From IMG/VR virus record IMGVR_UViG_3300013132_000166, positions 1 to 31,082 of that record: DNA of 31,082 bases, one strand, 5' to 3'. The position numbers and the translations under genes are program-made. Each line of letters starts with the position of its first letter. Within the stretch, counting starts at the first letter, position 1. Of the stretch, positions 2,373 through 14,177 are shown piece by piece. The DNA is from a virus. Below the pieces are notes generated by a model. That model ran no database searches. It worked only from the letters and a program-made list of their open reading frames with translations, and was not told the DNA's origin.

Positions 2373-5300
2373 ATGGCTGAACAGACATTTAGATCCCCAG
2401 GATTCTTCGAGCAGGAAATTGACTTGTCAGCCCGCCAGGGTACAACGCTCGGAGTTCCTGCGGGCGTGATTGGCACGTCTAAAATGGGACCCGCCTTCGT
2501 CCCAGTCACTATCGGCACGACGGTCGACTTTGAGAACCGGTTTGGATCACTCGATCCTGATCGCTTTGGTCCCTATGCTGTTCGGGAATTCCTCAAGCAT
2601 CGCAACGCAGTCACATTCGTCCGTGTTCTAGGAGCGGGCGCGAATACAACAGAGTCTGACATCTCGAACACTGAGATTCTAGGCACTGTCAAGAGCGCCG
2701 GATTTATCCTCTCTGGTTCCGGAACGAATAAGTCGCCAGGATCAGTCCAGTTCCTTTGCGCCGTGCATGAGCTCAATACACAAGAAGTTGCAGGATACCC
2801 TGTTTATAGCGACAACAAGACGTTTGCTGAGCGTCTGGCAGGTGGAGATGATCGAGTCAACCTGGTCCGCGCAGTCCTCTTTACTCCAACGGGATCCCGA
2901 TTCGAAGTCCTAGACTATAACGACTCCTATACAGCAGCGAACGTTGACGACTCTCTTGCAGAGTTCGGTGGAGCCTCTTTCCTCGGTGAGAACTTCTTCA
3001 AGCTCGTTTTGAGCTCAAGCACGAGCGCGCTATCACGCGATGAGGGTGTCAATGGAATTAGAATCTTCACGGCTTCCTTGAATCCATCAAGCAAGCACTA
3101 CGTTGGTAAGGTTCTAAACGCGAATCCAGACAAGTTCCAGGAGGAAGAGCATCTCCTTTATCTTGATTTCGCAGTCGAGAATGAGGTCGCTGCAGTTAGA
3201 GTTGCCGCTGACACGGTTGCCATTCTCTCAGGATCAGGCGCTACAACGGCAGCTGGCGGTGATACTGTAACTCCATTCCGCAATCTTTTTGGCAAGTTCA
3301 ATACTCGGTATACGACTCCCAGAACACCGGCGTTTATCTCACAGCCCTATGGATCCTCTGAGTACGACCTCTTCCACTTCGAGACGATTTCTGACGGTGC
3401 GGCTTCGAATAGCGATTTCAAGATCTCTATCGCGAATATTCGAAAGTCTCTTGATCCTGCAAACGAGTTTGGTTCATTCGACGTGCAGGTTCGCCGATTT
3501 GATGATACCGACACTGACCTCGCAATCCTCGAGGTCTATCCTGACTGTAACCTCAATCCCAAGAGCGAAAACTATGTCGCTCGTAAGATCGGCGATAAGA
3601 AGGTCTACTTCAATTTCGATACGACGGACGAAGATGAACAGCGCCTCATTGTCCAAGGTAAGTACCCCACACGTTCTTCGAGAATTCGCATCGTGATGAA
3701 TGATGCTGTGGAGCGTGAGACGGTGCCAGCCAGCTCACTTCCTTTCGGGTTCAGAGGCCTTCCAGTCCTCAAGACTGCAAATTCTCTTACGGACAACCCG
3801 CTCTCTGTGATGACTGATCGATTTGGTAATGCATTGGGAGATTCTGGTGTCCGTCTTGGGAATTACGGAGCGACAGGCACACCACTAACTGGGTCCGTTC
3901 TTCCTCCTCTTCCTTTCCGGTTCAAGGTGACGCGTGGAGCTGTCTCTAGCGATGTGACACCAGAATACATCGGTGAAGTTGGAACATCTGAGCGTGTCGA
4001 CGCCCGTCTCTACTGGGGTACCAAGTTTGAGAGAATGCCGCTTACAGGCACAGTGCTCGACGCCGCTTTGAACTCGAACGTCTCGAACGTCCCCAATCCA
4101 ATCATCAAGTCCTACGCAGCGTTCCAGGGCATCACAAAGCTCGATACGCTGGTGACAGGTGCTGGCGCCGACGAGTTCAACAATAATAAGTTCACCTTGG
4201 CGAGAGTTGCACTATACAATCAGCTTGTTGGCGGACAGATCACCAACGTTACAGGAACGGCCAGAGAGCACATGCTCGAGGCTGCGTATTTGAGAAATGG
4301 TGCTCCAGACGCGACAAGCTACACGATTACAGACACAGCGCTCGGGGCGGACAGAATCACATTGGCGACCCTAGTCCACACGGCCAGCTCGGTCTTCAAC
4401 AGGTTCCAGGAGTACTGCAAGTTCACGGCTCCCTTCTACGGCGGCTTCGATGGTGTGAACGTCCTCGATCGAGATAACCGGCTCCTTAATGATAAGGCAT
4501 CAAGCTCTGATGAAGGCGGCAAGGCGACAACCTCCACAACAGGATTTGGTCTCGCTGGAACGCTGGACGCCTCAATGTCAGGTAAGGGTAAGGACAACAA
4601 CATCGTCTCGGCCTACCGAGTCGCGACGAATATTCTCACCGATGAGATCTCCTCGAATGTGAATATCCTGGCGATCCCCGGTATCAGAGACGTTCTCGTT
4701 ACCGACTTCGCCATGGAACAGGTCAAGAACTATGGAATGGCGATCTATCTGATGGACGTGCTCAACTATGACGCGGATGTCAATCGTCTCTTCGATGATG
4801 CTGCAATCAAGCCAGACGTTCGTGAGACGACTGAGCAGTTCGACAGCCGCGCAATCAACAACAATTACGTGGCGACGTACTTCCCAGATGTGTTCCTGCA
4901 GGATCCAGTCAATCGGCGCCCAGTCAAGGTGCCAGCTTCAGTGGTCGCCCTCGGAGCTCTTGCATTCAATGACAAGGTCTCCTACCCCTGGTTCGCTCCT
5001 GCAGGCTTCAACCGCGCCGCCCTCTCGGACGTCACGAACGTGGTCACCCGGCTCAACTCCGAGGACCGCGACGTCCTCTACGACGGTCGCATCAATCCCA
5101 TTGCGACATTCCCGGAGGGTGGCTTCGTGATCTTCGGTCAGAAGACGCTCCAGCAGGCCAAGTCGGCCCTCGACCGGGTCAACGTCCGCCGGCTCCTCCT
5201 CGAGGTCAAGCGTCTCGTCTCGGCCGTCGCCAAGAAGCTCCTCTTCGAGCAGAATGATGCGACAACCCGGGCCAAGTTTGTGAGCCAAGTGACGCCTCTC

Positions 5301-5486
5301 CTCGGACTCATTCAGGCACAGTCTGGTATTGAGCAGTTCAAGGTTGTCTGTGACGCAACAAACAACACTGAGCTCGATGTCGAGGCCAATAGAATGAACG
5401 GCAGAATCGTTCTCGTCCCGACACGGGCCGTCGAGTTTATCTCCGTCGACTTCATCATCACGAACAGCGGCGTGTCTTTCGAGTGA
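2373..5486 (+). CDS. 18: Tail sheath protein, gp18-type (first paralogue)
   Basis: 1,037 residues against 659 in T4 gp18. The N-terminus 'FRSPGFFEQEIDLS' and the segment 'GVPAGVIGTSKMGPAFVPV' are the typical sheath opening that donates a strand to the neighbouring subunit. The C-terminal domain carries 'SYPWFAPAGFNRAAL', 'FGQKTL', 'SALDRVNVRRLLLEVKRLV' and a final 'FISVDFIITNSGVSFE', the conserved contractile-sheath core. The central 500 or so residues are an enlarged, sheath-specific surface insertion. Subunits form the contractile outer tube of the tail. An AAGGAG lies upstream of the ATG. A second sheath gene starts 42 nt downstream. The family call is secure; which paralogue forms the main sheath cannot be told from sequence. 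Confidence 0.95.
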   Translation: MAEQTFRSPGFFEQEIDLSARQGTTLGVPAGVIGTSKMGPAFVPVTIGTTVDFENRFGSLDPDRFGPYAVREFLKHRNAVTFVRVLGAGANTTESDISNTEILGTVKSAGFILSGSGTNKSPGSVQFLCAVHELNTQEVAGYPVYSDNKTFAERLAGGDDRVNLVRAVLFTPTGSRFEVLDYNDSYTAANVDDSLAEFGGASFLGENFFKLVLSSSTSALSRDEGVNGIRIFTASLNPSSKHYVGKVLNANPDKFQEEEHLLYLDFAVENEVAAVRVAADTVAILSGSGATTAAGGDTVTPFRNLFGKFNTRYTTPRTPAFISQPYGSSEYDLFHFETISDGAASNSDFKISIANIRKSLDPANEFGSFDVQVRRFDDTDTDLAILEVYPDCNLNPKSENYVARKIGDKKVYFNFDTTDEDEQRLIVQGKYPTRSSRIRIVMNDAVERETVPASSLPFGFRGLPVLKTANSLTDNPLSVMTDRFGNALGDSGVRLGNYGATGTPLTGSVLPPLPFRFKVTRGAVSSDVTPEYIGEVGTSERVDARLYWGTKFERMPLTGTVLDAALNSNVSNVPNPIIKSYAAFQGITKLDTLVTGAGADEFNNNKFTLARVALYNQLVGGQITNVTGTAREHMLEAAYLRNGAPDATSYTITDTALGADRITLATLVHTASSVFNRFQEYCKFTAPFYGGFDGVNVLDRDNRLLNDKASSSDEGGKATTSTTGFGLAGTLDASMSGKGKDNNIVSAYRVATNILTDEISSNVNILAIPGIRDVLVTDFAMEQVKNYGMAIYLMDVLNYDADVNRLFDDAAIKPDVRETTEQFDSRAINNNYVATYFPDVFLQDPVNRRPVKVPASVVALGALAFNDKVSYPWFAPAGFNRAALSDVTNVVTRLNSEDRDVLYDGRINPIATFPEGGFVIFGQKTLQQAKSALDRVNVRRLLLEVKRLVSAVAKKLLFEQNDATTRAKFVSQVTPLLGLIQAQSGIEQFKVVCDATNNTELDVEANRMNGRIVLVPTRAVEFISVDFIITNSGVSFE

Positions 5487-5528: not shown

Positions 5529-8500
5529 ATGGCTGAGCTTACCTTCAAGAGTCCAGGCGTGAGCACAAGGGAGATCGACCTGAGCGGACCTGCGAATGTC
5601 ACGCCGCAGGGGACTCCTGCCGGTGTAATTGGTATGGCCCAGAAGGGTCGGGCATTCATCCCGATCACCCTGGCCCGCTACCAGGATTTCGTCGCTGAGT
5701 TTGGTCAGACAGACGGAGAGAAGTTTGGCCCTCTGGCCATGTATGAGTGGTTCCGAAACGCGCAGGCAGGAACATATATCCGGACTCTCGGAGTGGGAGA
5801 TGGCCTTAAGAGAGAGTCTTCTGGACGTGTCAATAATGCAGGTTTTGTTGTAGGATCTGAGCAGGTCCAGGCGAATGGTCAGCTCGGACAGAACACATTC
5901 GCCGGGTCGACTGCAGTCGTCCCAGGGGTCCTTGGAAGAACTTACTTCCTTGGCGCTTTCATGTCTGAGTCGAATGGGTCTCGAGTCTTTTCGGACGCAG
6001 GAATTCAGACGAGCCTCTCCGCGTCTGCGATCATTCGCGGCGTTGTGATGGTGCCCTCAGGCGTCGTCCTTGGCCTGTCCTCTTCTTACTCAGAAAACAA
6101 CACACCTGCCAACGCCAATGCAGCATACGCGAACTTTGGAGTAGGCTCCAACGCTGGTGCCTCGCTAGGAACTGTCAATATCAATAACGGACAGTCCAAC
6201 TTCGTTATGATTCTCAACGGGCATGCACCTACGGACGAGTTTCCGAATGTGATCACGGCCTCCTTTGACCCCAACTCAGCGCAGTACTTTGGCAGGATCC
6301 TTAACTCTGATCCAACGCGTGTCGAAAAGGCCGGCCACTACCTCTACACGAACTGGGACGTCTATCCTTCGCTGGCGGTCGTTACCAGCTCGGGAGTCCA
6401 GACAGCAGGCACAACGGCATCTGGTCTCATTGAGGCTGCCTTCGCTCTCACAGGAAGCCAGGCGCGCAATACTGGCACGGCGAGCGTTCCAAACTATGAG
6501 GGCTTCGAGGACCGCTATCGCACAGCGTTCTCTCCCTATGTCACCTCACAGAAGTTCGGCGGCAAGCCTAAGAACCTCTTCCGGATTCACGCCCTCGACG
6601 ACGGTGCTGTCGCGAACAGCCTCTTCAAGGTCACGATCGAGAACATTGCGGCGACAAAGAACGAAAACAGCCCGTTCGGTACCTTCGACCTCCTCGTCCG
6701 CGACTTCTCCGATACGGATGAAGACCAGGTCGCCCTCGAGTCCTTTAGAGGTCTCAGCCTCGACCCGAGCTCAGATCGCTACATCAGTCGAATCATCGGC
6801 GATCGCCACGCCTATTATGACTTCGACCAGAAGACCGGAGCCCAGAAGCTTCGTATTGACGGCAATTTTGCCAACGTTTCCAAGTATGTTCGCGTTGAGA
6901 TTGACCCGAGCGTCGAGAGCCTCTCCGTCGATGCCTCGGCACTTCCAACAGGCTTCCGGGGTCCCCACTTCGTCCTGACCGCAGGCACTCCCGCAGGCGG
7001 AGTTCCTCTCCTTACCGGACACCTAACAGGTTCTACAGGCGCCGGCGCTCTTCATGATGTGACGTTCTCTGACCTCGCCAACGCGCAGGTCGCTCCTATT
7101 CCCTACCGCCTCAATGTCGCCAAGGGAACTGGCCTCAGCAAGAAGCCTATCGCAAATCTCACCTGGGGTGTTCAATTCGAAGTCCAGGATAAGCTTGACG
7201 ATCCCAATGGTACGGTGGGTCCGGACCTGAGTCGCCCATCCTACACCAAGTACTTCCCCCGCTGGGCCGTTGGAAACAGGAGCGTTCACACCGGCGACAC
7301 CGTGGGTACTCCTAACGACGGAACGGTGGTTCTCAACTCCGATCTCTTCCAGAACAACCTATTTTCTCTCGAGAATGTCCAGGTTGCAACTGGATCCGAC
7401 GATCGCCCTCTTTCGAAGTACTGGGATGTCGCTTCCTATCGCAGAAATAGTACCAAGTTGACTGTCCTCTCAGCTTCCGATGGTACGGTCTTCGACGACA
7501 CCAACACTCGCTTCCTCGATCCGAGCAAGGACTTCGATCACCTGCCCTCCCGCAAGTGGCTCAAGTTCTCCTTCTTCGTCCAGGGCGGCTTCGATGGAGT
7601 CAACGTCTTCGACACAGAGAAGTCCAAGATGACGGACCTTGCAGTCCGTCGAGAGTTTGACGACGCCAATCAGGGTGGACAGAATGGACCGACCCTCCGC
7701 TCCTACCGCAAGGCAGTCGACGTGATGGCGGAAAAGGCTGACGTCGATATCCAGCTCCTGGCGATCCCAGGCCTGCGCCACCCCGAGGTGACAAACTATG
7801 CGATCGAGGCTGTCGAGAACCGGTTCGACGCTCTCTTCCTGATGGATATCGAGGAAAAAGACCAGATGAACACGTTCATCACTGGGTCTGGACAGCTCCC
7901 CTCGGTCTCCTACACTGTGAACACAGTCGCTGACCGTAACCTGGACACGAGCTTCGCCGCAGCCTACTACCCCGACGTGGTGATGCAGGATCCGGCGACG
8001 CTGACCAACGTGGTGGTGCCGCCCTCCGTCGCGGTCCTTGGAGCCTTCGCGCTCAATGACACGGTGGCATACCCATGGTTCGCCCCTGCTGGTTTCACTC
8101 GAGGTGCCCTGGCACGTGTGATCGAGACACAGGTAAAGCTCAACCGGTCCAACCTCGATGACCTCTACGAGGTCGACGTGAACCCGCTCGTGGCTTTCGC
8201 GGACACCCCTGGTGTGGTCGTCTTTGGACAGAAGACGATGCTGGCTGCGCAGAGCGCGCTCGACCGGGTTAACGTCCGCCGGCTCCTCATCGAGATCCGC
8301 CGCCGGGTCCGCCGCATCGCCAACACCTTCATCTTCGAGCCCAACCGCGCTGAGACCCTCAACCGGTTCTCAGCGGCAGTGAATCCGGTCCTTCAGCAGA
8401 TCCAGTCCCAGCGTGGCGTGAGCCGCTTCAAGGTCCAGATCGACACGACGACCACGACCCAGGCAGACGTCGAGAACAACACCATCCGCGGAAAGATCTA

Positions 8501-8573
8501 CGTCCAGCCCACTCGCAGCCTTGAGTTCGTCTCTCTTGACTTCGTCGTTACGAACGCCGGCGCCGCAATCTGA
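5529..8573 (+). CDS. 18: Tail sheath protein, gp18-type (second paralogue)
   Basis: 1,014 residues, full-length and intact. It aligns end to end with the preceding sheath: 'FKSPGVSTREIDLSG', 'GTPAGVIGMAQKGRAFIPI', 'FGPLAMYEWF', then C-terminal 'AYPWFAPAGFTRGAL', 'VFGQKTM', 'SALDRVNVRRLLIEIRRRV' and 'FVSLDFVVTNAGAAI'. The middle regions differ a lot in sequence, so this is an old duplication or a recruited homologue. AGGAG at 5516-5520 gives a good ribosome binding site. It may make mixed sheaths, alternate rings, or a special first or last sheath ring; sequence alone cannot decide. The gene ends 23 nt before a strong terminator. Confidence 0.95.
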   Translation: MAELTFKSPGVSTREIDLSGPANVTPQGTPAGVIGMAQKGRAFIPITLARYQDFVAEFGQTDGEKFGPLAMYEWFRNAQAGTYIRTLGVGDGLKRESSGRVNNAGFVVGSEQVQANGQLGQNTFAGSTAVVPGVLGRTYFLGAFMSESNGSRVFSDAGIQTSLSASAIIRGVVMVPSGVVLGLSSSYSENNTPANANAAYANFGVGSNAGASLGTVNINNGQSNFVMILNGHAPTDEFPNVITASFDPNSAQYFGRILNSDPTRVEKAGHYLYTNWDVYPSLAVVTSSGVQTAGTTASGLIEAAFALTGSQARNTGTASVPNYEGFEDRYRTAFSPYVTSQKFGGKPKNLFRIHALDDGAVANSLFKVTIENIAATKNENSPFGTFDLLVRDFSDTDEDQVALESFRGLSLDPSSDRYISRIIGDRHAYYDFDQKTGAQKLRIDGNFANVSKYVRVEIDPSVESLSVDASALPTGFRGPHFVLTAGTPAGGVPLLTGHLTGSTGAGALHDVTFSDLANAQVAPIPYRLNVAKGTGLSKKPIANLTWGVQFEVQDKLDDPNGTVGPDLSRPSYTKYFPRWAVGNRSVHTGDTVGTPNDGTVVLNSDLFQNNLFSLENVQVATGSDDRPLSKYWDVASYRRNSTKLTVLSASDGTVFDDTNTRFLDPSKDFDHLPSRKWLKFSFFVQGGFDGVNVFDTEKSKMTDLAVRREFDDANQGGQNGPTLRSYRKAVDVMAEKADVDIQLLAIPGLRHPEVTNYAIEAVENRFDALFLMDIEEKDQMNTFITGSGQLPSVSYTVNTVADRNLDTSFAAAYYPDVVMQDPATLTNVVVPPSVAVLGAFALNDTVAYPWFAPAGFTRGALARVIETQVKLNRSNLDDLYEVDVNPLVAFADTPGVVVFGQKTMLAAQSALDRVNVRRLLIEIRRRVRRIANTFIFEPNRAETLNRFSAAVNPVLQQIQSQRGVSRFKVQIDTTTTTQADVENNTIRGKIYVQPTRSLEFVSLDFVVTNAGAAI

Positions 8574-8596: not shown

Positions 8597-8627
8597 TAAT
8601 GGGAGCGTCTTCGGATGGCTCCCATTA
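8597..8627. terminator. Strong UUCG-loop hairpin terminator, probably bidirectional
   Basis: Perfect 10-bp arms TAATGGGAGC (8597-8606) and GCTCCCATTA (8618-8627) enclose a further short stem closed by a C(TTCG)G tetraloop at 8609-8614. On the plus strand it is followed by TGCTATTTT. C(UUCG)G hairpins are a known hallmark of T4 transcription terminators. It ends the sheath transcript. Its right arm contains the stop codon (8625-8627) of the oppositely oriented endonuclease gene, so it also sits at the end of that transcript. Confidence 0.85.
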
Positions 8628-10274
8628 TGCTATTTTGAGCTCGAACACGAGGTTGGGACAGCCCCAAATCTTGACCACACCATGTTCTGCCGCGACATCA
8701 CTTTCCGATAGGCCAGCAGCTTTGTCTGCCCTGATCTTGAAGCGATCGATGCGATGACGACCGTCGGTCCACCAGAAGCGGTCTGGTGTTGCACCAGTCT
8801 GCGCCCACCCTGATGATCTGTAACCTTTTCCTGTGCCATGCCTGGTATCAACGTACGTGATCAGGCCCTGGTACCCATCTTCCTCGGCCTTGCTAAGGGC
8901 CCACCGCGTTAGACGGCCTAGCGCGCCTGGGACAGACGTGTAGAGAGAGGTACAGAATCTTGCCACCTCAAGTGACGCTCCGTACTTCTTATGAAGCGGT
9001 CTCCGGAGGGACATACAGGCTACAATCTCTCCGGTATCAGTGACGAGTGCAGCACAGTAGCTGGACTTCACATCTCCATCGATATGATTTGTCTCGAAGA
9101 ACTTCTTTCTGTCTCCCTTAGAGATCGACGCTACGTGACACTTCCTCGCGCCAATCTTTCTCTGGGCGATGCCAAGCCTGTGCGATATCATCGACTTCAC
9201 GATTTCCTGCTTGTCACGCCACTCGTCCTCGAAGATGTGCATCAAGGTCGTGTCGACTTTCGCACACATCTCCGTTTTTTGCGAGTGATACTTCTTGTTC
9301 TTGAAGATCGTGCTGTGGAAATACAGGCCGTTGTACTCGATCCCAAAGTTGAGCTCCGGAATGTGGGTATCGATCTCGTAGGGAGGAATCACGTCGCGGG
9401 AAGAGATATTGGTGTCAAATCCACAAGATCTCACGTAGCGATCGATCTCCACCTGTGCCTGTGAGCCGCCAGGAGAGCATGTCCCACAGCGACCGGTCAT
9501 CGCCTCTATGAGACTTTTCTTCTGTATAGTGCAACATGAGGAACACTCGACCTGTAGACATCGATCTTTACCAGATCGATACTCATCCAGACCTCCCACA
9601 AGTCGAATACCGGGCACTCCAGATAGCCTTCTTAAAATTTCATCATCAGAGAGGCGCTTGAGAGAATCTAGGCGATCTCTCACCTCTTTCTGAGTCATTG
9701 TGCGGGAGACGTTGATTGCCATCGCCGCGATGCGCTCGTCTGTTTCCTTCGTGCGACCCTTGGCCCAAGGAATATAGACACCCTCTTTAAAGCCCTCTAT
9801 TAGATTCTGGCGGTAATCAGCTAGCCTCTTGTCATTCAGGTGTGTGAGGCCTTTCGACCATGGGGTCCGCTGTCCTGACCTAAACTGTTGAGTCACAGTC
9901 TTTGAGCGCGTTTTCGCTGCCTGAGCAAGTCTTTCGTCGCTTTCTTTGGTGAGACCTCGAGACCAGCCTACCTTACCCTGTAGTGACACCGATCTCTTCT
10001 CGATAATTTTTTGGGCGATTTCTGGCTCATATGACGAATGGACGTTCGCGTTGTGGCCTTTGATGAAAGTCGCAAAGCCTTTGTTCCAGCCTGCGAACTG
10101 CGTCTGTTGGCCGCACCCACACTTGCAGCGGGGCGTGACACCCTTAAGGTTGGTGTCTATGTACGCTATTTCGAGTGTGCTGTATCCGTGTTCTTCGAGG
10201 TGCGAAAGAAAGCTACCGTTTCGGCCGCATGCGAAATTGCACAAAGGACATTGAAATCGTGTAGATTGAATCAT
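8625..10274 (-). CDS. Free-standing homing endonuclease, Vsr-like nuclease with zinc modules
   Basis: 549 residues. Modules in order: a C2H2 finger (C9, C12, H25, H29); a second Cys/His site (C50, C52, C54, H74); three repeats of the form W-S/A-K/R-G-L/R-T (about residues 104, 139 and 170), resembling DNA-binding NUMOD-type repeats; a zinc ribbon (C244, C247, C263, C266); a Vsr/EDxHD-like nuclease core with D302, 'GIEYNGLYFH' (E313, H320) and 'HIFEDEW' (349-350); and a C-terminal domain found behind this nuclease in other phage proteins, with 'FFETNHIDGD' and a final 'IWGCPNLVF'. The product probably cuts a phage DNA site and spreads its own gene. It is antisense to all neighbours, lies between sheath and tube genes, and does not interrupt either. 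No Shine-Dalgarno is seen before the ATG. Confidence 0.85.
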   Translation of the reverse strand: MIQSTRFQCPLCNFACGRNGSFLSHLEEHGYSTLEIAYIDTNLKGVTPRCKCGCGQQTQFAGWNKGFATFIKGHNANVHSSYEPEIAQKIIEKRSVSLQGKVGWSRGLTKESDERLAQAAKTRSKTVTQQFRSGQRTPWSKGLTHLNDKRLADYRQNLIEGFKEGVYIPWAKGRTKETDERIAAMAINVSRTMTQKEVRDRLDSLKRLSDDEILRRLSGVPGIRLVGGLDEYRSGKDRCLQVECSSCCTIQKKSLIEAMTGRCGTCSPGGSQAQVEIDRYVRSCGFDTNISSRDVIPPYEIDTHIPELNFGIEYNGLYFHSTIFKNKKYHSQKTEMCAKVDTTLMHIFEDEWRDKQEIVKSMISHRLGIAQRKIGARKCHVASISKGDRKKFFETNHIDGDVKSSYCAALVTDTGEIVACMSLRRPLHKKYGASLEVARFCTSLYTSVPGALGRLTRWALSKAEEDGYQGLITYVDTRHGTGKGYRSSGWAQTGATPDRFWWTDGRHRIDRFKIRADKAAGLSESDVAAEHGVVKIWGCPNLVFELKIA

Positions 10275-10280
10275 CGCTAT

Positions 10281-10286
10281 AATGTA
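10281..10286 (-). promoter_or_regulatory. Candidate -10 box for leaderless mRNA of the antisense endonuclease
   Basis: On the minus strand TACATT is followed by six bases (ATAGCG) and then the ATG at 10274. No Shine-Dalgarno lies in between, so transcription would begin at or near the start codon. The same TANNNT-N6-ATG layout occurs before several other genes here. The rest of the 155-nt gap to the tube gene shows no other convincing element. Confidence 0.4.
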
Positions 10287-10429
10287 AGTATACTTTCACT
10301 TGCGTATTTTACATATGGGTGCCGATAAAAGACACTGCTATTTTTACGCTCCAATAGTTAATACGGAGCCATGGCGGACAAATCTTTCATGCCGCCTAGG
10401 TTGACTGTATAGAATAAAGGAGATAAGAA

Positions 10430-10918
10430 ATGGCTGATACGCTCTCAGTTTCAGAGATGTTACCCAATAAATTCGAACCCAAGAGGAAGTTTCGGTGGGT
10501 CTTCGCCATCGAGGGCATCGACTCCTTCCTCATGAAGACGGCCGCCCGCCCGACGATCAACACCGCCGAGCAGGAGATCAACTTCATCAATGCCAAGCGC
10601 TACATCGCAGGTAAGACCACCTTCGATACGATCCAGGTGACGATCTATGACCCGATCGCTCCGTCCGGCGCCCAGCAGGTGATGGAGTGGATCCGCACCC
10701 ACTACGAGTCGGTGTCAGGCCGCGCCGGCTATGCCGACTTCTACAAGCGCGACTGCCAGCTCAAGATGCTCGACCCCGTCGGAACGGTCGTCGAGCTCTG
10801 GGACCTGAAGGGCTGCTTCATCACAGCGGCGAGCTTCGGCGATCTGGACTACGGCACCGAGGACCCCACAGAGATCCAGCTGACTCTGCGCTACGACAAC
10901 TGCGTACTGCAGTACTAG
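10430..10918 (+). CDS. 19: Tail tube protein, gp19-type
   Basis: 162 residues, nearly the length of T4 gp19 (163). Typical features are an N-terminal 'PNKFEPKRKFRWVFAIEGID', a middle 'GKTTFDTIQVTIYDPI', 'VMEWIRTHYESVSGRAGYA', and a closing beta strand 'IQLTLRYDNCVLQY'. Hexamer rings of this protein stack to form the rigid inner tube that is driven into the host. AAGGAG at 10417-10422 is well placed before the ATG. The first 20 or so codons are AT-richer; the rest uses mostly G/C-ending codons, as expected for a heavily made protein. Endonuclease genes lie on both sides, but the reading frame is uninterrupted. Confidence 0.95.
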   Translation: MADTLSVSEMLPNKFEPKRKFRWVFAIEGIDSFLMKTAARPTINTAEQEINFINAKRYIAGKTTFDTIQVTIYDPIAPSGAQQVMEWIRTHYESVSGRAGYADFYKRDCQLKMLDPVGTVVELWDLKGCFITAASFGDLDYGTEDPTEIQLTLRYDNCVLQY

Positions 10919-10924
10919 TAGAAC

Positions 10925-10947
10925 TCACCTATCAAATTGATAGGTGA
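10925..10947 (+). terminator. Perfect hairpin just after the tube gene
   Basis: Arms TCACCTATC and GATAGGTGA (9 bp) with a 5-nt loop begin 7 nt after the gp19 stop. There is no T-run behind it, so it may be a weak terminator, a processing site, or a 3'-end stabiliser of the abundant tube mRNA rather than a classical intrinsic terminator. Confidence 0.45.
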
Positions 10948-10951
10948 CCGA

Positions 10952-10959
10952 TATAATTA
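10952..10959 (+). promoter_or_regulatory. T4-late-like promoter for the second endonuclease
   Basis: TATAATTA matches 7 of 8 positions of the T4 late consensus TATAAATA. Transcription would start around 10964-10967. That is inside or just past the 5' arm of the hairpin that otherwise covers the ribosome binding site. No -35 at correct spacing is seen, as expected for a late promoter. Confidence 0.5.
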
Positions 10960-10982
10960 CCTCCGGGAGCAATCTCGGAGGT
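10959..10982 (+). promoter_or_regulatory. Hairpin sequestering the ribosome binding site of the second endonuclease
   Basis: ACCTCCG (10959-10965) is the exact complement of CGGAGGT (10976-10982), which contains the Shine-Dalgarno GGAGG four bases before the ATG at 10986. In read-through RNA from the tube gene the site would be closed. RNA started at the internal late-like promoter would lack most or all of the 5' arm and be open. Confidence 0.6.
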
Positions 10983-10985
10983 TTT

Positions 10986-11909
10986 ATGTTTAAGTGCCCT
11001 AATTGTGAATTTGGCAGTGATTCTCTCGATTCTCTTAGAATTCATGCGTCAAAGCAACATAGGCTCACATCAGAAGACCTATATCTAGCAGTCTTTTCCA
11101 ATGGTGTCAAGCCGCTCTGTAAGTGCGGATGTGGAGAGCAAACCAGGTTCGTGACCCTTCAAAAGGGCTACAACGAGTATATTCGCGGTCATGTCTCACG
11201 TGTCAGCAACAACTGGGGCCACAATTTGAAGGCAAGAGAAAAGAGTCTAGACACCAGGCGCGTGATGTGGGAAAATGGGGAAATACAGGGTTGGTGCAAG
11301 GGCCTGACAAAAGAGGACCCCAGGATCGCTGAAATTATTAGAAAGATGAACACACCGGCACGCGCTCAAAAAATATCTAAATCTTTGACAGGCATACCAA
11401 AATCTTTGGCACACAGAGAGAAGATCCAAGAGCACATGCAGTCTTATTGGTCGAGCGAGGATAATAGAAGACAACAGAGCGAAAGACAAGCTGATTGCAT
11501 TCAAAGAGGCATGTTGACAAAGGCAACCAAAGTGCATGGATACTATCATGGCGCAAAGAAATCCAAAAATATTTCTCCATACTATAGGTCAAATTTTGAG
11601 CTAAATGCGATCGCACATTTCGAGGCAAATAATGACGTGCGCATGTATGAATCTGAGCCTTTTAAGATAGAATACGTGTATGATGAAAAGACAAGATACT
11701 ACGTTGTCGATTTTCTAGTAGAAATGTGCTGTGGAAAAAAGAAGTTAATTGAAGTAAAGCCAAGCTGCTTTACTAACCCGCAGAAATATAAGGCCAATGC
11801 TGCAAAATTTCAGTATGCGAACGAGTATGCCAATCTTCATGGATATGAATTTGAGATTTGGACTGAAAAAACACACCCATTTCTGTCAAGCCATCGCAAT
11901 TCTCTCTAG
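10986..11909 (+). CDS. Free-standing homing endonuclease, PD-(D/E)XK (TnsA-like) type
   Basis: 307 residues from the ATG at 10986, which has a strong GGAGG; an in-frame GTG at 10944 lies inside a hairpin and is less likely. Modules: C2H2 finger (C4, C7, H20, H25); a second Cys/His site (C45, C47, C49, H69), both as in the antisense endonuclease; one 'GWCKGLTKEDPR' repeat near residue 102; and a C-terminal nuclease with 'SNFELNAI' (E205), 'YVVDFLVEM' (D242) and 'LIEVKPS' (E256, K258). The Glu/Asp/Glu-x-Lys set and order are those of TnsA-type PD-(D/E)XK enzymes. The gene is visibly AT-richer than its neighbours, a sign of recent arrival. It probably cuts near the tube gene and promotes its own spread. 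Confidence 0.8.
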   Translation: MFKCPNCEFGSDSLDSLRIHASKQHRLTSEDLYLAVFSNGVKPLCKCGCGEQTRFVTLQKGYNEYIRGHVSRVSNNWGHNLKAREKSLDTRRVMWENGEIQGWCKGLTKEDPRIAEIIRKMNTPARAQKISKSLTGIPKSLAHREKIQEHMQSYWSSEDNRRQQSERQADCIQRGMLTKATKVHGYYHGAKKSKNISPYYRSNFELNAIAHFEANNDVRMYESEPFKIEYVYDEKTRYYVVDFLVEMCCGKKKLIEVKPSCFTNPQKYKANAAKFQYANEYANLHGYEFEIWTEKTHPFLSSHRNSL

Positions 11910-12006
11910 CCTCTCTGGTCTTCGCATTTCTAGCCCTATATGCAACAACATCTTACGTGAATCTGCACTTCTGAGGGTCACGCACATTCCTCTGCGGACA
12001 TGAATA

Positions 12007-12038
12007 CCATACTTACAGTTGGCCCTTGAAATAGGGCC
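12007..12038 (+). promoter_or_regulatory. Intergenic decamer plus GC-rich hairpin
   Basis: In the 150-nt gap 11910-12059, the decamer CCATACTTAC (12007-12016, also at 2330) is followed by GGCCCT (12021-12026) and AGGGCC (12033-12038), a 6-bp GC-rich stem with a 6-nt loop. AT-rich TATATTATT follows. It could be a terminator for the endonuclease transcript or part of a leader for the next operon. Confidence 0.35.
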
Positions 12039-12059
12039 TATATTATTGTGGATAGAGAC

Positions 12060-12371
12060 ATGAGAATTACAGAACAGCAGCTTCGTCGAATCATTCGAGA
12101 AGAGAGGGCCCGGCTCCGGGGCCGTCGGCTCAACGAGAGCTTCAACTCTGAGCAGCTCATGCGCATGGGCACCGGCGGCGCCGCCATGGCCACTGCAGTC
12201 GACGATCTCCGCGGAGACTGGATGGGCCTGGGACAGGCAGATCCTGCGCAGCCCGTCGACCACGCAGGTTGGGAGCTGCAGGTCGATGAGGCCATCAGCT
12301 CTCTCGTCGAGCAGATCATGAACGCTGTCGATGAGGTCGAAGAGGGCCTGATCAACGGCGACTACGCCTGA
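12060..12371 (+). CDS. Small unknown protein with N-terminal head-targeting-like tag
   Basis: 103 residues from the ATG at 12060, chosen because the N-terminus then reads MRITEQQLRRIIREE, closely matching MRITEAGLRRLIRRA of the next gene; a GTG at 12048 would add four residues. A very basic N-terminal helix of 26 residues ends in L-N-E, which fits the T4 prohead-protease consensus (Leu/Ile-x-Glu). The rest is acidic, with 'AGWELQVDEAISSLVEQI' probably helical. No enzyme motif is recognised. It is 14 nt upstream of another tagged gene and forms an operon with it and a Nudix gene. Packaging in the head is inference. Confidence 0.7.
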   Translation: MRITEQQLRRIIREERARLRGRRLNESFNSEQLMRMGTGGAAMATAVDDLRGDWMGLGQADPAQPVDHAGWELQVDEAISSLVEQIMNAVDEVEEGLINGDYA

Positions 12372-12385
12372 ATCAGAGATTAGCC

Positions 12386-12709
12386 ATGAGAATCACAGAG
12401 GCAGGCCTGCGAAGGCTCATTAGAAGGGCGCTCAATGAGCGCATGGGCATGTCCTATGAGGGCACCCCTGAGATGCAGCTCCTCCGCGATGCTTACGAAG
12501 ACCCTGACCTGATGCCTGAGGACGTCCGCCATCTCACATTTCGAGTGCGCCTGGGCCGCGCCGAGAGCATTGAGATCGTGGACAGCGTCATTCACGCAGG
12601 CCATGCCCCTGTCGTGATCAGTCTCGGACTTGCCCGGTCCGCAGGTACCGATCTTCCTGCCGTCCTTGACATGCTCGAGGCCCTAGGAGCCCGCCGGGCA
12701 GGAAGATAA
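12386..12709 (+). CDS. Small unknown protein with N-terminal head-targeting-like tag
   Basis: 107 residues. The first 18 (MRITEAGLRRLIRRALNE) match the tag of the preceding gene and again end L-N-E, a possible prohead-protease site. The remainder has two predicted helical stretches and a beta-like 'HAPVVISLGLARSAG'; I recognise no family. Only a weak ribosome binding site is visible, so translation may be coupled to the gene 14 nt upstream. Its TAA directly abuts the ATG of the Nudix gene. Confidence 0.7.
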   Translation: MRITEAGLRRLIRRALNERMGMSYEGTPEMQLLRDAYEDPDLMPEDVRHLTFRVRLGRAESIEIVDSVIHAGHAPVVISLGLARSAGTDLPAVLDMLEALGARRAGR

Positions 12710-13240
12710 ATGGTTTCCAATCCGAAGGGTGAGGGCTTCTGGGGCAAGCGTGGTGCCGGAGCCCTCATGGTCGCGCGGGGTACCGGTAGGGTGCTCCTTA
12801 CGCTCCGCTCTTCTGAAGTGAAGAACCCTGGAACCTGGGGCCTGCCTGGTGGCGCTGTGGATGAAGGTGAGTCTCCTGCAGGCGGCGCTCGCCGCGAGGC
12901 AGCCGAGGAAGTTGGATTTTCAGGCTCCCTCAAGCTTTATCCGGCCTATATCTTCAGGACCAAAGGGTTCACCTACTACAATTTCGTGGGACTTGTGGGG
13001 TCTGAGTTCGAGCCTGTCCTGGACTGGGAGAATGACGCCGCCGAGTGGTTTGACTTGGATGATCTGCCTAGCCCTCTGCACTTTGGGGTCGAGAGGCTCC
13101 TCCAGCACTCTCGGGACCTCATATCCTCTGTCGTCGAAGAGGCGCTGGAGGAAGTCGATGACGAGCAGCTCGCAGGCGGAGTTTCTGGAGCGATGGCGCT
13201 CGAAGCCCACGCACACCGGATCCGCTCTTTTTCTCGTTAG
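12710..13240 (+). CDS. Nudix hydrolase
   Basis: 176 residues with a complete Nudix box at about residues 48-70: Gly48, five residues, Glu54, seven residues, then R62-E63-A-A-E66-E67-V-G69-F. The Glu residues that bind Mg2+ are present. Upstream 'GTWGLPGG' is the usual approach to the box. Nudix enzymes cleave nucleoside diphosphates linked to another group; possible substrates include oxidised dNTPs, dinucleotide polyphosphates, ADP-ribose or capped RNA, and the sequence does not say which. The last 50 residues form an acidic extension outside the catalytic fold. AGGAAG precedes the ATG, which abuts the preceding stop codon. It lacks the N-terminal tag of its two neighbours. Confidence 0.92.
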   Translation: MVSNPKGEGFWGKRGAGALMVARGTGRVLLTLRSSEVKNPGTWGLPGGAVDEGESPAGGARREAAEEVGFSGSLKLYPAYIFRTKGFTYYNFVGLVGSEFEPVLDWENDAAEWFDLDDLPSPLHFGVERLLQHSRDLISSVVEEALEEVDDEQLAGGVSGAMALEAHAHRIRSFSR

Positions 13241-13310: not shown

Positions 13311-14177
13311 ATGTCAGAAGAGGAACTCACCCGGGCCGAGAGAAATGAAGTCTTCACTGCCGCCGATGCACAGCGGGCAGGAATTCCAGTTCGAAATGTG
13401 ATGAAGGATGACTTCAATTTCGAAGTCCCCGTCGAGACCGTGCCGCTTCCGAGCATGGGCTCTGTGTACAGCGCTGACTCTCCTCTTTTTAGACAGGAGA
13501 CGATCGACATCAAGGCAATGACGGCGAAGGAGGAGGATATCCTCACGTCACGTGCTCTCATCAAGAAGGGCACCGTCATCACACACCTGCTCAAGTCCTG
13601 TATGATGGACAAGAGGATCGATCCAGATGAGATGCTCACTGGAGACCGCAACGCGATCATGACGGCGGTCCGTATTACAGGGTATGGTTCAGACTATAAG
13701 GTCGAGGTCGATTGCCCAGCATGCGGTGAGAAGTCCAAGCAGGCGTTTGATCTGACTGAGCTACCAATCAAGCGGCTCAATATCCAGCCTATCGCTGAAG
13801 GTGCCAATCTCTTCGAGTTTGTGCTTCCGGTCTCCAAGAAGCGGGTTCGATTCAAGTTCCTGACCGGTGCTGATGAGGCCGAGCTCGCCACGATGCAGGA
13901 GCGCAAGAAGAAGCAGGGCATGACGGCTGACAATCTTGTCACCCAGCGCCTGATGTTCGCCCTGCAATCAGTTGAGGGTATCACCGACAAGACCAAGATT
14001 GCCATGTTCATCAAGAACATGCCCGCCCGTGACTCTCTAGAGCTTCGACGCTACATCGATTCGAACGAGCCTGGCGTCGAGATGAAGTCCTGGATGGACT
14101 GCCCTTCCTGCCTCGAGCACTCGGAAGTGAGGCTGCCAATTGGCGCCGCCTTCTTTTGGCCTGACTCCGAACGATAA
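13311..14177 (+). CDS. 26: gp26-like baseplate/tail-assembly protein with split zinc site
   Basis: 288 residues. The block 'FNFEVPVETVPLPSMGSVY', then 'MTAKEEDILTSRALIKKGTV', 'MLTGDRNAIMTAVRITGYG' and the C-terminal 'IGAAFFWP' are, from memory, characteristic of the T4 base-plate protein family that includes gp26. Two CPxC pairs (C135/C138 and C264/C267), 126 residues apart, would make one zinc ribbon. T4 gp26 is needed for hub assembly. The gene's place between tube and tape-measure genes, followed by an overlapping small ORF in another frame, is also that of tail-assembly chaperones, so it may act as a tape-measure chaperone. A hairpin overlaps its ribosome binding site. Confidence 0.8.
   Translation: MSEEELTRAERNEVFTAADAQRAGIPVRNVMKDDFNFEVPVETVPLPSMGSVYSADSPLFRQETIDIKAMTAKEEDILTSRALIKKGTVITHLLKSCMMDKRIDPDEMLTGDRNAIMTAVRITGYGSDYKVEVDCPACGEKSKQAFDLTELPIKRLNIQPIAEGANLFEFVLPVSKKRVRFKFLTGADEAELATMQERKKKQGMTADNLVTQRLMFALQSVEGITDKTKIAMFIKNMPARDSLELRRYIDSNEPGVEMKSWMDCPSCLEHSEVRLPIGAAFFWPDSER

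Follow-up and report, generated by a model that had tools for sequence, protein, structure and literature searches.

The free-standing HNH endonuclease gene mobE of phage Aeh1 has been shown to carry an RBS-sequestering hairpin together with a late promoter whose RNA avoids that hairpin, and the same logic is implicated for the free-standing endonuclease gene segB of T4, according to two reviews (PMC2988022; PMC3014915). The leaders of the T4 endonucleases I-TevI, I-TevII and I-TevIII likewise have a late promoter within the hairpin region; RNA arriving from upstream is closed and late RNA is open. I-TevI additionally represses itself through an operator. A related arrangement occurs in T4 genes e, soc and 49, where the SD and/or the AUG is paired in long RNA; at gene e, late promoters cut off the 5' strand (PMC3014915).

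We analysed a 31-kb fragment of viral DNA (31,082 nt, label G000; the whole stretch is referred to as the window) in which a leader of this kind precedes an endonuclease gene. Like the window gene, mobE is a free-standing endonuclease gene of a T4-type phage with an RBS hairpin and a late promoter evading it. It differs in nuclease type (HNH vs TnsA-like here), neighbour (nrdA vs tail tube here), phage lineage and promoter motif, which in the window is TATANTTA. segB shares the free-standing state, a predicted late promoter and an RBS structure, but encodes a GIY-YIG enzyme and sits among tRNA genes. The I-Tev enzymes are intron-encoded GIY-YIG or HNH proteins with early or middle upstream RNA, and genes e, soc and 49, whose closed RNAs are early, are not mobile-type endonucleases. 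Unlike in these cases, the closed RNA of the window locus probably comes from a late gene. Judged from sequence, the feature is a well-supported case of a known control scheme, set apart by nuclease type, phage lineage, promoter motif and breadth of conservation. The original prediction, which described an I-TevI-like switch and regarded such control on a free-standing nuclease as new, is partly supported overall; the novelty falls away, as mobE and segB already have it according to the two reviews cited above.

The endonuclease gene and its insertion site

The window carries T4-type tail genes (sheath-like, tail tube and baseplate). The upstream neighbour of the endonuclease gene encodes a T4 gp19-like tail tube protein of 162 aa (10430-10918, + strand; phrog_4542, E 9.6e-35), which matches Pfam Phage_T4_gp19 at E 6.9e-5, under the gathering score of that family. 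Its nearest cultured-phage match is Microcystis phage Mel-JY01, and it also matches Rhodothermus phage RM378, the reference Far-T4 phage (PMC4360716). A DNA-level search of cultured phages with window positions 9800-12900 gave no match; an Rfam search gave no hit, and a tRNA search found none. Two neighbouring sheath-like genes encode proteins of about 1000 aa each (2373-5486 and 5529-8573), and a NUDIX hydrolase gene (12710-13240) lies within the tail gene cluster.

The endonuclease gene starts at the ATG at 10986 and encodes 307 aa (10986-11909, + strand); the mechanical ORF start at 10944 is wrong. The N-terminus is cysteine-rich and zinc-finger-like. Residues 215-294 match PF08722 (E 1.5e-15), which places the C-terminus, by domain match, in the TnsA-like, PD-(D/E)XK class of nuclease folds; in the profile search of this protein PF08722 alone exceeded its cut-off, and neither a GIY-YIG nor an HNH domain was found. 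In the window, as in its close relatives and the 18 distant loci checked, the gene lies behind the tube gene. It is absent from the close relative G007, whose post-tube gene resembles the gene 3' of the window endonuclease. The protein is a free-standing, probably homing, endonuclease. In the 11628-11867 region its nuclease domain is matched by head completion/head closure proteins of the T4 gp4 type (phrog_218). In a tblastn search of cultured phages with the endonuclease, only the nuclease domain was matched, in T4 gp4-type head completion and hypothetical proteins, and no cultured phage carrying such a leader was found. Among the post-tube endonucleases L148-L205 the N-terminal half is shared and the C-terminal half mostly aligns poorly to the window protein, which looks like an exchange of nuclease domains at a single site.

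The window also holds a first endonuclease-like gene on the - strand (8625-10274), between the sheath and tube genes. The two endonuclease-like proteins are ~35% identical at the N-terminus. The first gene has hardly any leader and shows no SD hairpin; its TATACTTA is at 10292-10285. The same flanking pair also occurs in G005 and G006.

The leader hairpin and the promoter motif

The inner helix of the leader has 10 bp, formed by the 5' arm ACCTCCGGGA (10959-10968, + strand) and the 3' arm TCTCGGAGGT (10973-10982, + strand) around a GCAA loop. The 3' arm holds the SD, GGAGG at 10977-10981, and the 5' arm is its anti-SD. ACCTCCG (10959-10965) pairs with CGGAGGT (10976-10982) exactly as originally predicted, within a helix longer than the one described: beyond the 10 bp, an outer helix of 7 bp joins GATATAA (10950-10956, + strand) to TTATGTT (10984-10990) and thereby also pairs the AUG at 10986-10988. 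The SD-to-AUG spacing is short, at 4 nt. The segment 10919-10998, which includes a second hairpin at 10925-10947, folds at -34.7 kcal/mol (z -7.3), a value equalled by 0 of 200 shuffles; folded alone, the inner hairpin gives -15.7 (z -3.1). The SD-hiding hairpin in front of the endonuclease gene is confirmed as a real feature by this predicted fold. The second hairpin is a perfect 10-bp inverted repeat with an AAT loop (TCACCTATCA/TGATAGGTGA) and has no U-tract. It precedes the promoter box by 4 nt and could be an operator; weaker palindromes occur at this place in the relatives L134, L136 and L011.

The motif TATAATTA (10952-10959, + strand) overlaps the 5' arm. It had been proposed as a T4-type late promoter with 7 of 8 matches to the consensus TATAAATA. 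The count and the overlap stand, but this match is weak by itself because one-mismatch matches to TATAAATA are common in the window (20 on both strands vs 6.3 expected). In the upstream regions of relatives, over-represented 8-mers were collected de novo, with T4 not used as a guide. This gave TATANTTA in G001 (27 occurrences vs 2.5 expected) and G003 (9 vs 0.45), together with ATANTTAT in G001 (30 vs 3.1) and ATANTTAG in G005 (12 vs 0.37); ATATTTAT is the top upstream motif in nine further contigs. On these sequence counts, TATAATTA is better taken as an exact copy of the phage group's own motif, TATANTTA, and as a predicted -10 box of a late promoter, than as a degenerate form of TATAAATA. 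For the Far-T4-like group the analysis yields a promoter-like motif found de novo (TATANTTA, ATATTTAT), and its carriers in the group are G001 (L101-L114), G005 (L115-L122), G003 (L127-L129), G014, G015 and G018-G024. Two other motifs were over-represented upstream of genes, GTGCAANG in G001 (10 vs 0.55 expected), which may mark a further class of promoter or a regulator site, and TANCTTTG in G015 (12 vs 0.57).

Scanning the window for ATANTTA gave 10 sites, nine of them on the + strand. These lie shortly upstream of a sheath gene, the tube gene, the endonuclease gene and the genes at 12048/12386, 14435, 15207 and 20399, with two more near 2173-2276; the lone - strand site directly precedes the large gene 8625-10274 on that strand. 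ATAGTTA at 10354-10360 (+) stands in front of the tube gene and would be the source of read-through RNA, and ATACTTA at 12009-12015 (+) is the promoter-motif site that belongs to the following phage gene and is retained 3' of the inserted endonuclease. A gp55-like late sigma factor (phrog_234) is encoded in G001, G002, G014 and G019, the window itself being a 31-kb fragment; phrog_12791, another late-sigma family, gave nothing in any sequence searched. The first survey of Far-T4 genomes reported that it detected none of the T4 core genes that regulate transcription (PMC4360716), whereas a gp55-like sigma factor is present in these related phages.

T4 late promoters consist of a TATA box of 8 bp that precedes the start by roughly one helical turn (PMC2988020). 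Applied to the box at 10952-10959, this spacing predicts a start near 10965 (+ strand; range 10964-10967), so that, by sequence and T4 spacing, RNA from the endonuclease gene's own promoter should lack the CCUCC of the 5' arm. In the calculations the SD was unpaired with a probability of 0.000 in RNA from 10361 or 10919 and of ~0.32 in RNA from 10965, a partial opening only, and the predicted cost of opening it fell from 15.3 kcal/mol in the long RNA to 2.3 kcal/mol in the short one. Predicted accessibility rises only when the 5' end lies at 10961 or beyond (0.004 at 10960, 0.18 at 10961 and 0.34 at 10964).

Conservation and the terminator question

A first protein search returned 18 relatives with 56-100% identity, and an alignment search extended the set to 80 loci. 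In all 18 relatives of the first search the gene stands behind the tube gene, the hairpin is kept and the SD lies in the 3' arm. Every one except L012 has TATAATTA at the base of the 5' arm. In L012 TATAAACA replaces it; there the hairpin is kept and the other strand has changed to match, ATAATTACC becoming ATAAACACC and GGTTTTTAT becoming GGTGTTTAT. Beyond the close group, the protein match lies mainly in the N-terminal half, and 18 of 18 loci checked are post-tube.

All leaders examined fold into a long hairpin that buries SD-like purines. Many AT-rich relatives have a weak SD. In 49 of 51 endonuclease leaders the SD has a predicted probability of at most 0.02 of being unpaired (0.03 and 0.20 in the other two); among 1317 leaders of ordinary genes, taken from 15 sequences and including some of these endonucleases, 5.0% fall below 0.02. 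The stem is supported by sequence covariation in two independent groups. In group 1, four pairs have changed on both sides, with a score reached by 0 of 500 shuffles, and the inner four pairs of the outer helix are kept in 11 of 11 relatives; in group 2, six pairs covary (0 of 500 shuffles) and 97.9% of cells are paired. The promoter strand TTTG is nearly invariant in group 2 and its partners drift, mostly via G-U wobble, which argues that the 5' strand is under a second constraint, as a promoter would be. The leaders of L020/L192 (G005) and L022/G006 have a stem sequence unrelated to that of the window and the same plan, with the SD in the 3' arm.

Nearly all endonuclease leaders have the motif within the hairpin. 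In the majority of distant relatives it is in the loop or in the 5' arm beside the loop, so their predicted RNA would lack the whole 5' arm. L192/G006 keep the hairpin with no motif inside, and for these and L012 an open RNA is not predicted. A test of promoter position relative to the hairpin gave 32 of 37 vs 65% expected (P 0.002), a moderate result on leaders that are not independent of each other, given that a place 10-50 nt in front of a gene is in any case usual for promoters in these phages. Chance overlap of an AT-rich site with a hairpin might be suggested by the frequency of one-mismatch TATAAATA matches in the window. It is hardly credible given conservation, covariation and recurrence at dozens of diverged loci whose C-terminal halves differ, and we consider it refuted by the comparative data. 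Taken together, the sequence comparisons indicate that the layout of promoter and SD hairpin is real and evolutionarily maintained.

The hairpin has a second possible identity. It consists of a GC-rich stem followed by UUUUAUGUUU, and could be the intrinsic terminator of the tube gene, with the overlap of SD and AUG a by-product of insertion behind or inside that terminator. In a terminator scan the window hairpin, 10 pairs followed by TTTTATGTTT, scores as terminator-like; its U-rich tail, TTTATGTTTA, spans 10983-10992 (+ strand). An intrinsic terminator is present at the same place in 30 of the 38 endonuclease-free relatives that were examined, in some with nearly the sequence of the window hairpin (L055, L056; for example GACCTCCCGACGTATATGCGTCGGGAGGTTTTATTTTA in L056), and the interval from the window endonuclease to the next gene showed no strong terminator. 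The post-tube terminators of endonuclease-free L021, L055, L056 and L090 share the position, the CCTCC...GGAGG stem and the U-rich tail; they differ in that the SD is not used and no promoter lies inside, the motif, where present, following the terminator. Of the 16 endonuclease-free relatives with both elements, 15 show this order; the first motif precedes the terminator in the remaining one and lies inside it in none, and the overlap of promoter and hairpin is therefore peculiar to endonuclease leaders. The leaders of the L020/L022 type, moreover, have the SD hairpin without a U-tract (CAGTATG, CATTATG), and the leader stems of AT-rich phages have a median GC of 0.19 and 19 pairs, as against 0.46 and 12.5 pairs for the tube terminators of relatives. 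L152 and L196 have a separate terminator behind the endonuclease gene. These differences make a terminator with an incidental SD an improbable account of the hairpin.

The hairpin might instead serve both roles, as a reused tube terminator at which upstream RNA either stops or reads through in the closed state, and which RNA from the internal promoter, having no 5' arm, escapes on both counts. The resemblance of the window hairpin to the tube terminators of endonuclease-free relatives fits such a dual role, as do a similar U-tailed hairpin on both sides of the endonuclease gene in L190 and, in L152, a repeat of ~40 nt of the leader behind the endonuclease gene, next to a terminator. The AT-rich stems, however, would be poor terminators, and flank duplication is significant in only three of ~37 loci tested, one of them doubtful. 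We regard the dual role as quite possible, though not the more probable reading. Duplication of the flanks as a general rule was rejected, since it is clear in L152, likely in L190 and doubtful in L150. The sequences of L190 and L152 nevertheless suggest an origin from the tube terminator, though not a general one. The downstream copies in L152 and L190 are possibly insertion scars with terminator duplication.

A probable promoter-in-hairpin lock on the post-tube endonuclease

The explanation we favour, and think likely, is a promoter-in-hairpin lock on a free-standing post-tube endonuclease. RNA entering from the tube gene holds both arms, so that SD and AUG would be paired and the endonuclease hardly translated. 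The TATANTTA promoter overlaps or lies in the hairpin; if it fires and starts RNA near 10965, the gene's own RNA would begin past the anti-SD strand. With this short leader the SD would become accessible, and the endonuclease would be produced solely from RNA of its own promoter. Some of the tube transcripts may, in addition, end at the hairpin.

Originally, the switch was expected to act in time, as in I-TevI, with early or middle RNA from upstream closed and late RNA open. The layout on which that expectation was built is real and maintained and works on paper, and the anatomy is the same as in I-TevI, mobE and segB. The early-closed, late-open timing finds no support in the window, as the gene upstream encodes a virion protein and shares the promoter class of the endonuclease gene (ATAGTTA at 10354), and a non-exhaustive search identified no early or middle promoter upstream. 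We consider such timing unlikely. Given that the promoter of the tube gene belongs to this class too, the lock probably serves above all to insulate the endonuclease gene from the abundant tube mRNA rather than to separate early from late expression.

A more speculative extension of this lock concerns its history. The post-tube endonuclease lineage may have turned a host-gene terminator into a combined lock, which stops or closes incoming RNA and opens only RNA from the buried promoter, and may have kept it across diverged Far-T4-like phages despite exchange of the nuclease half and a complete change of stem sequence and base composition. The control scheme was known in a handful of T4-type phages, and its anatomy is now seen across dozens of uncultured phages. 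This suggests that silence on the neighbour's mRNA is a general condition for tolerating a mobile endonuclease beside an essential, highly expressed gene.

Burial of an SD in a hairpin was also seen at other genes, in the leader of window gene 13311-14177 and at G005:105104 and G005:115668. The hairpins of the two G005 genes contain an ATANTTA site, for example CTCCGCTAG..ATACTTA..CTAGCGGAG, and the leaders resemble those of T4 gene e and soc.
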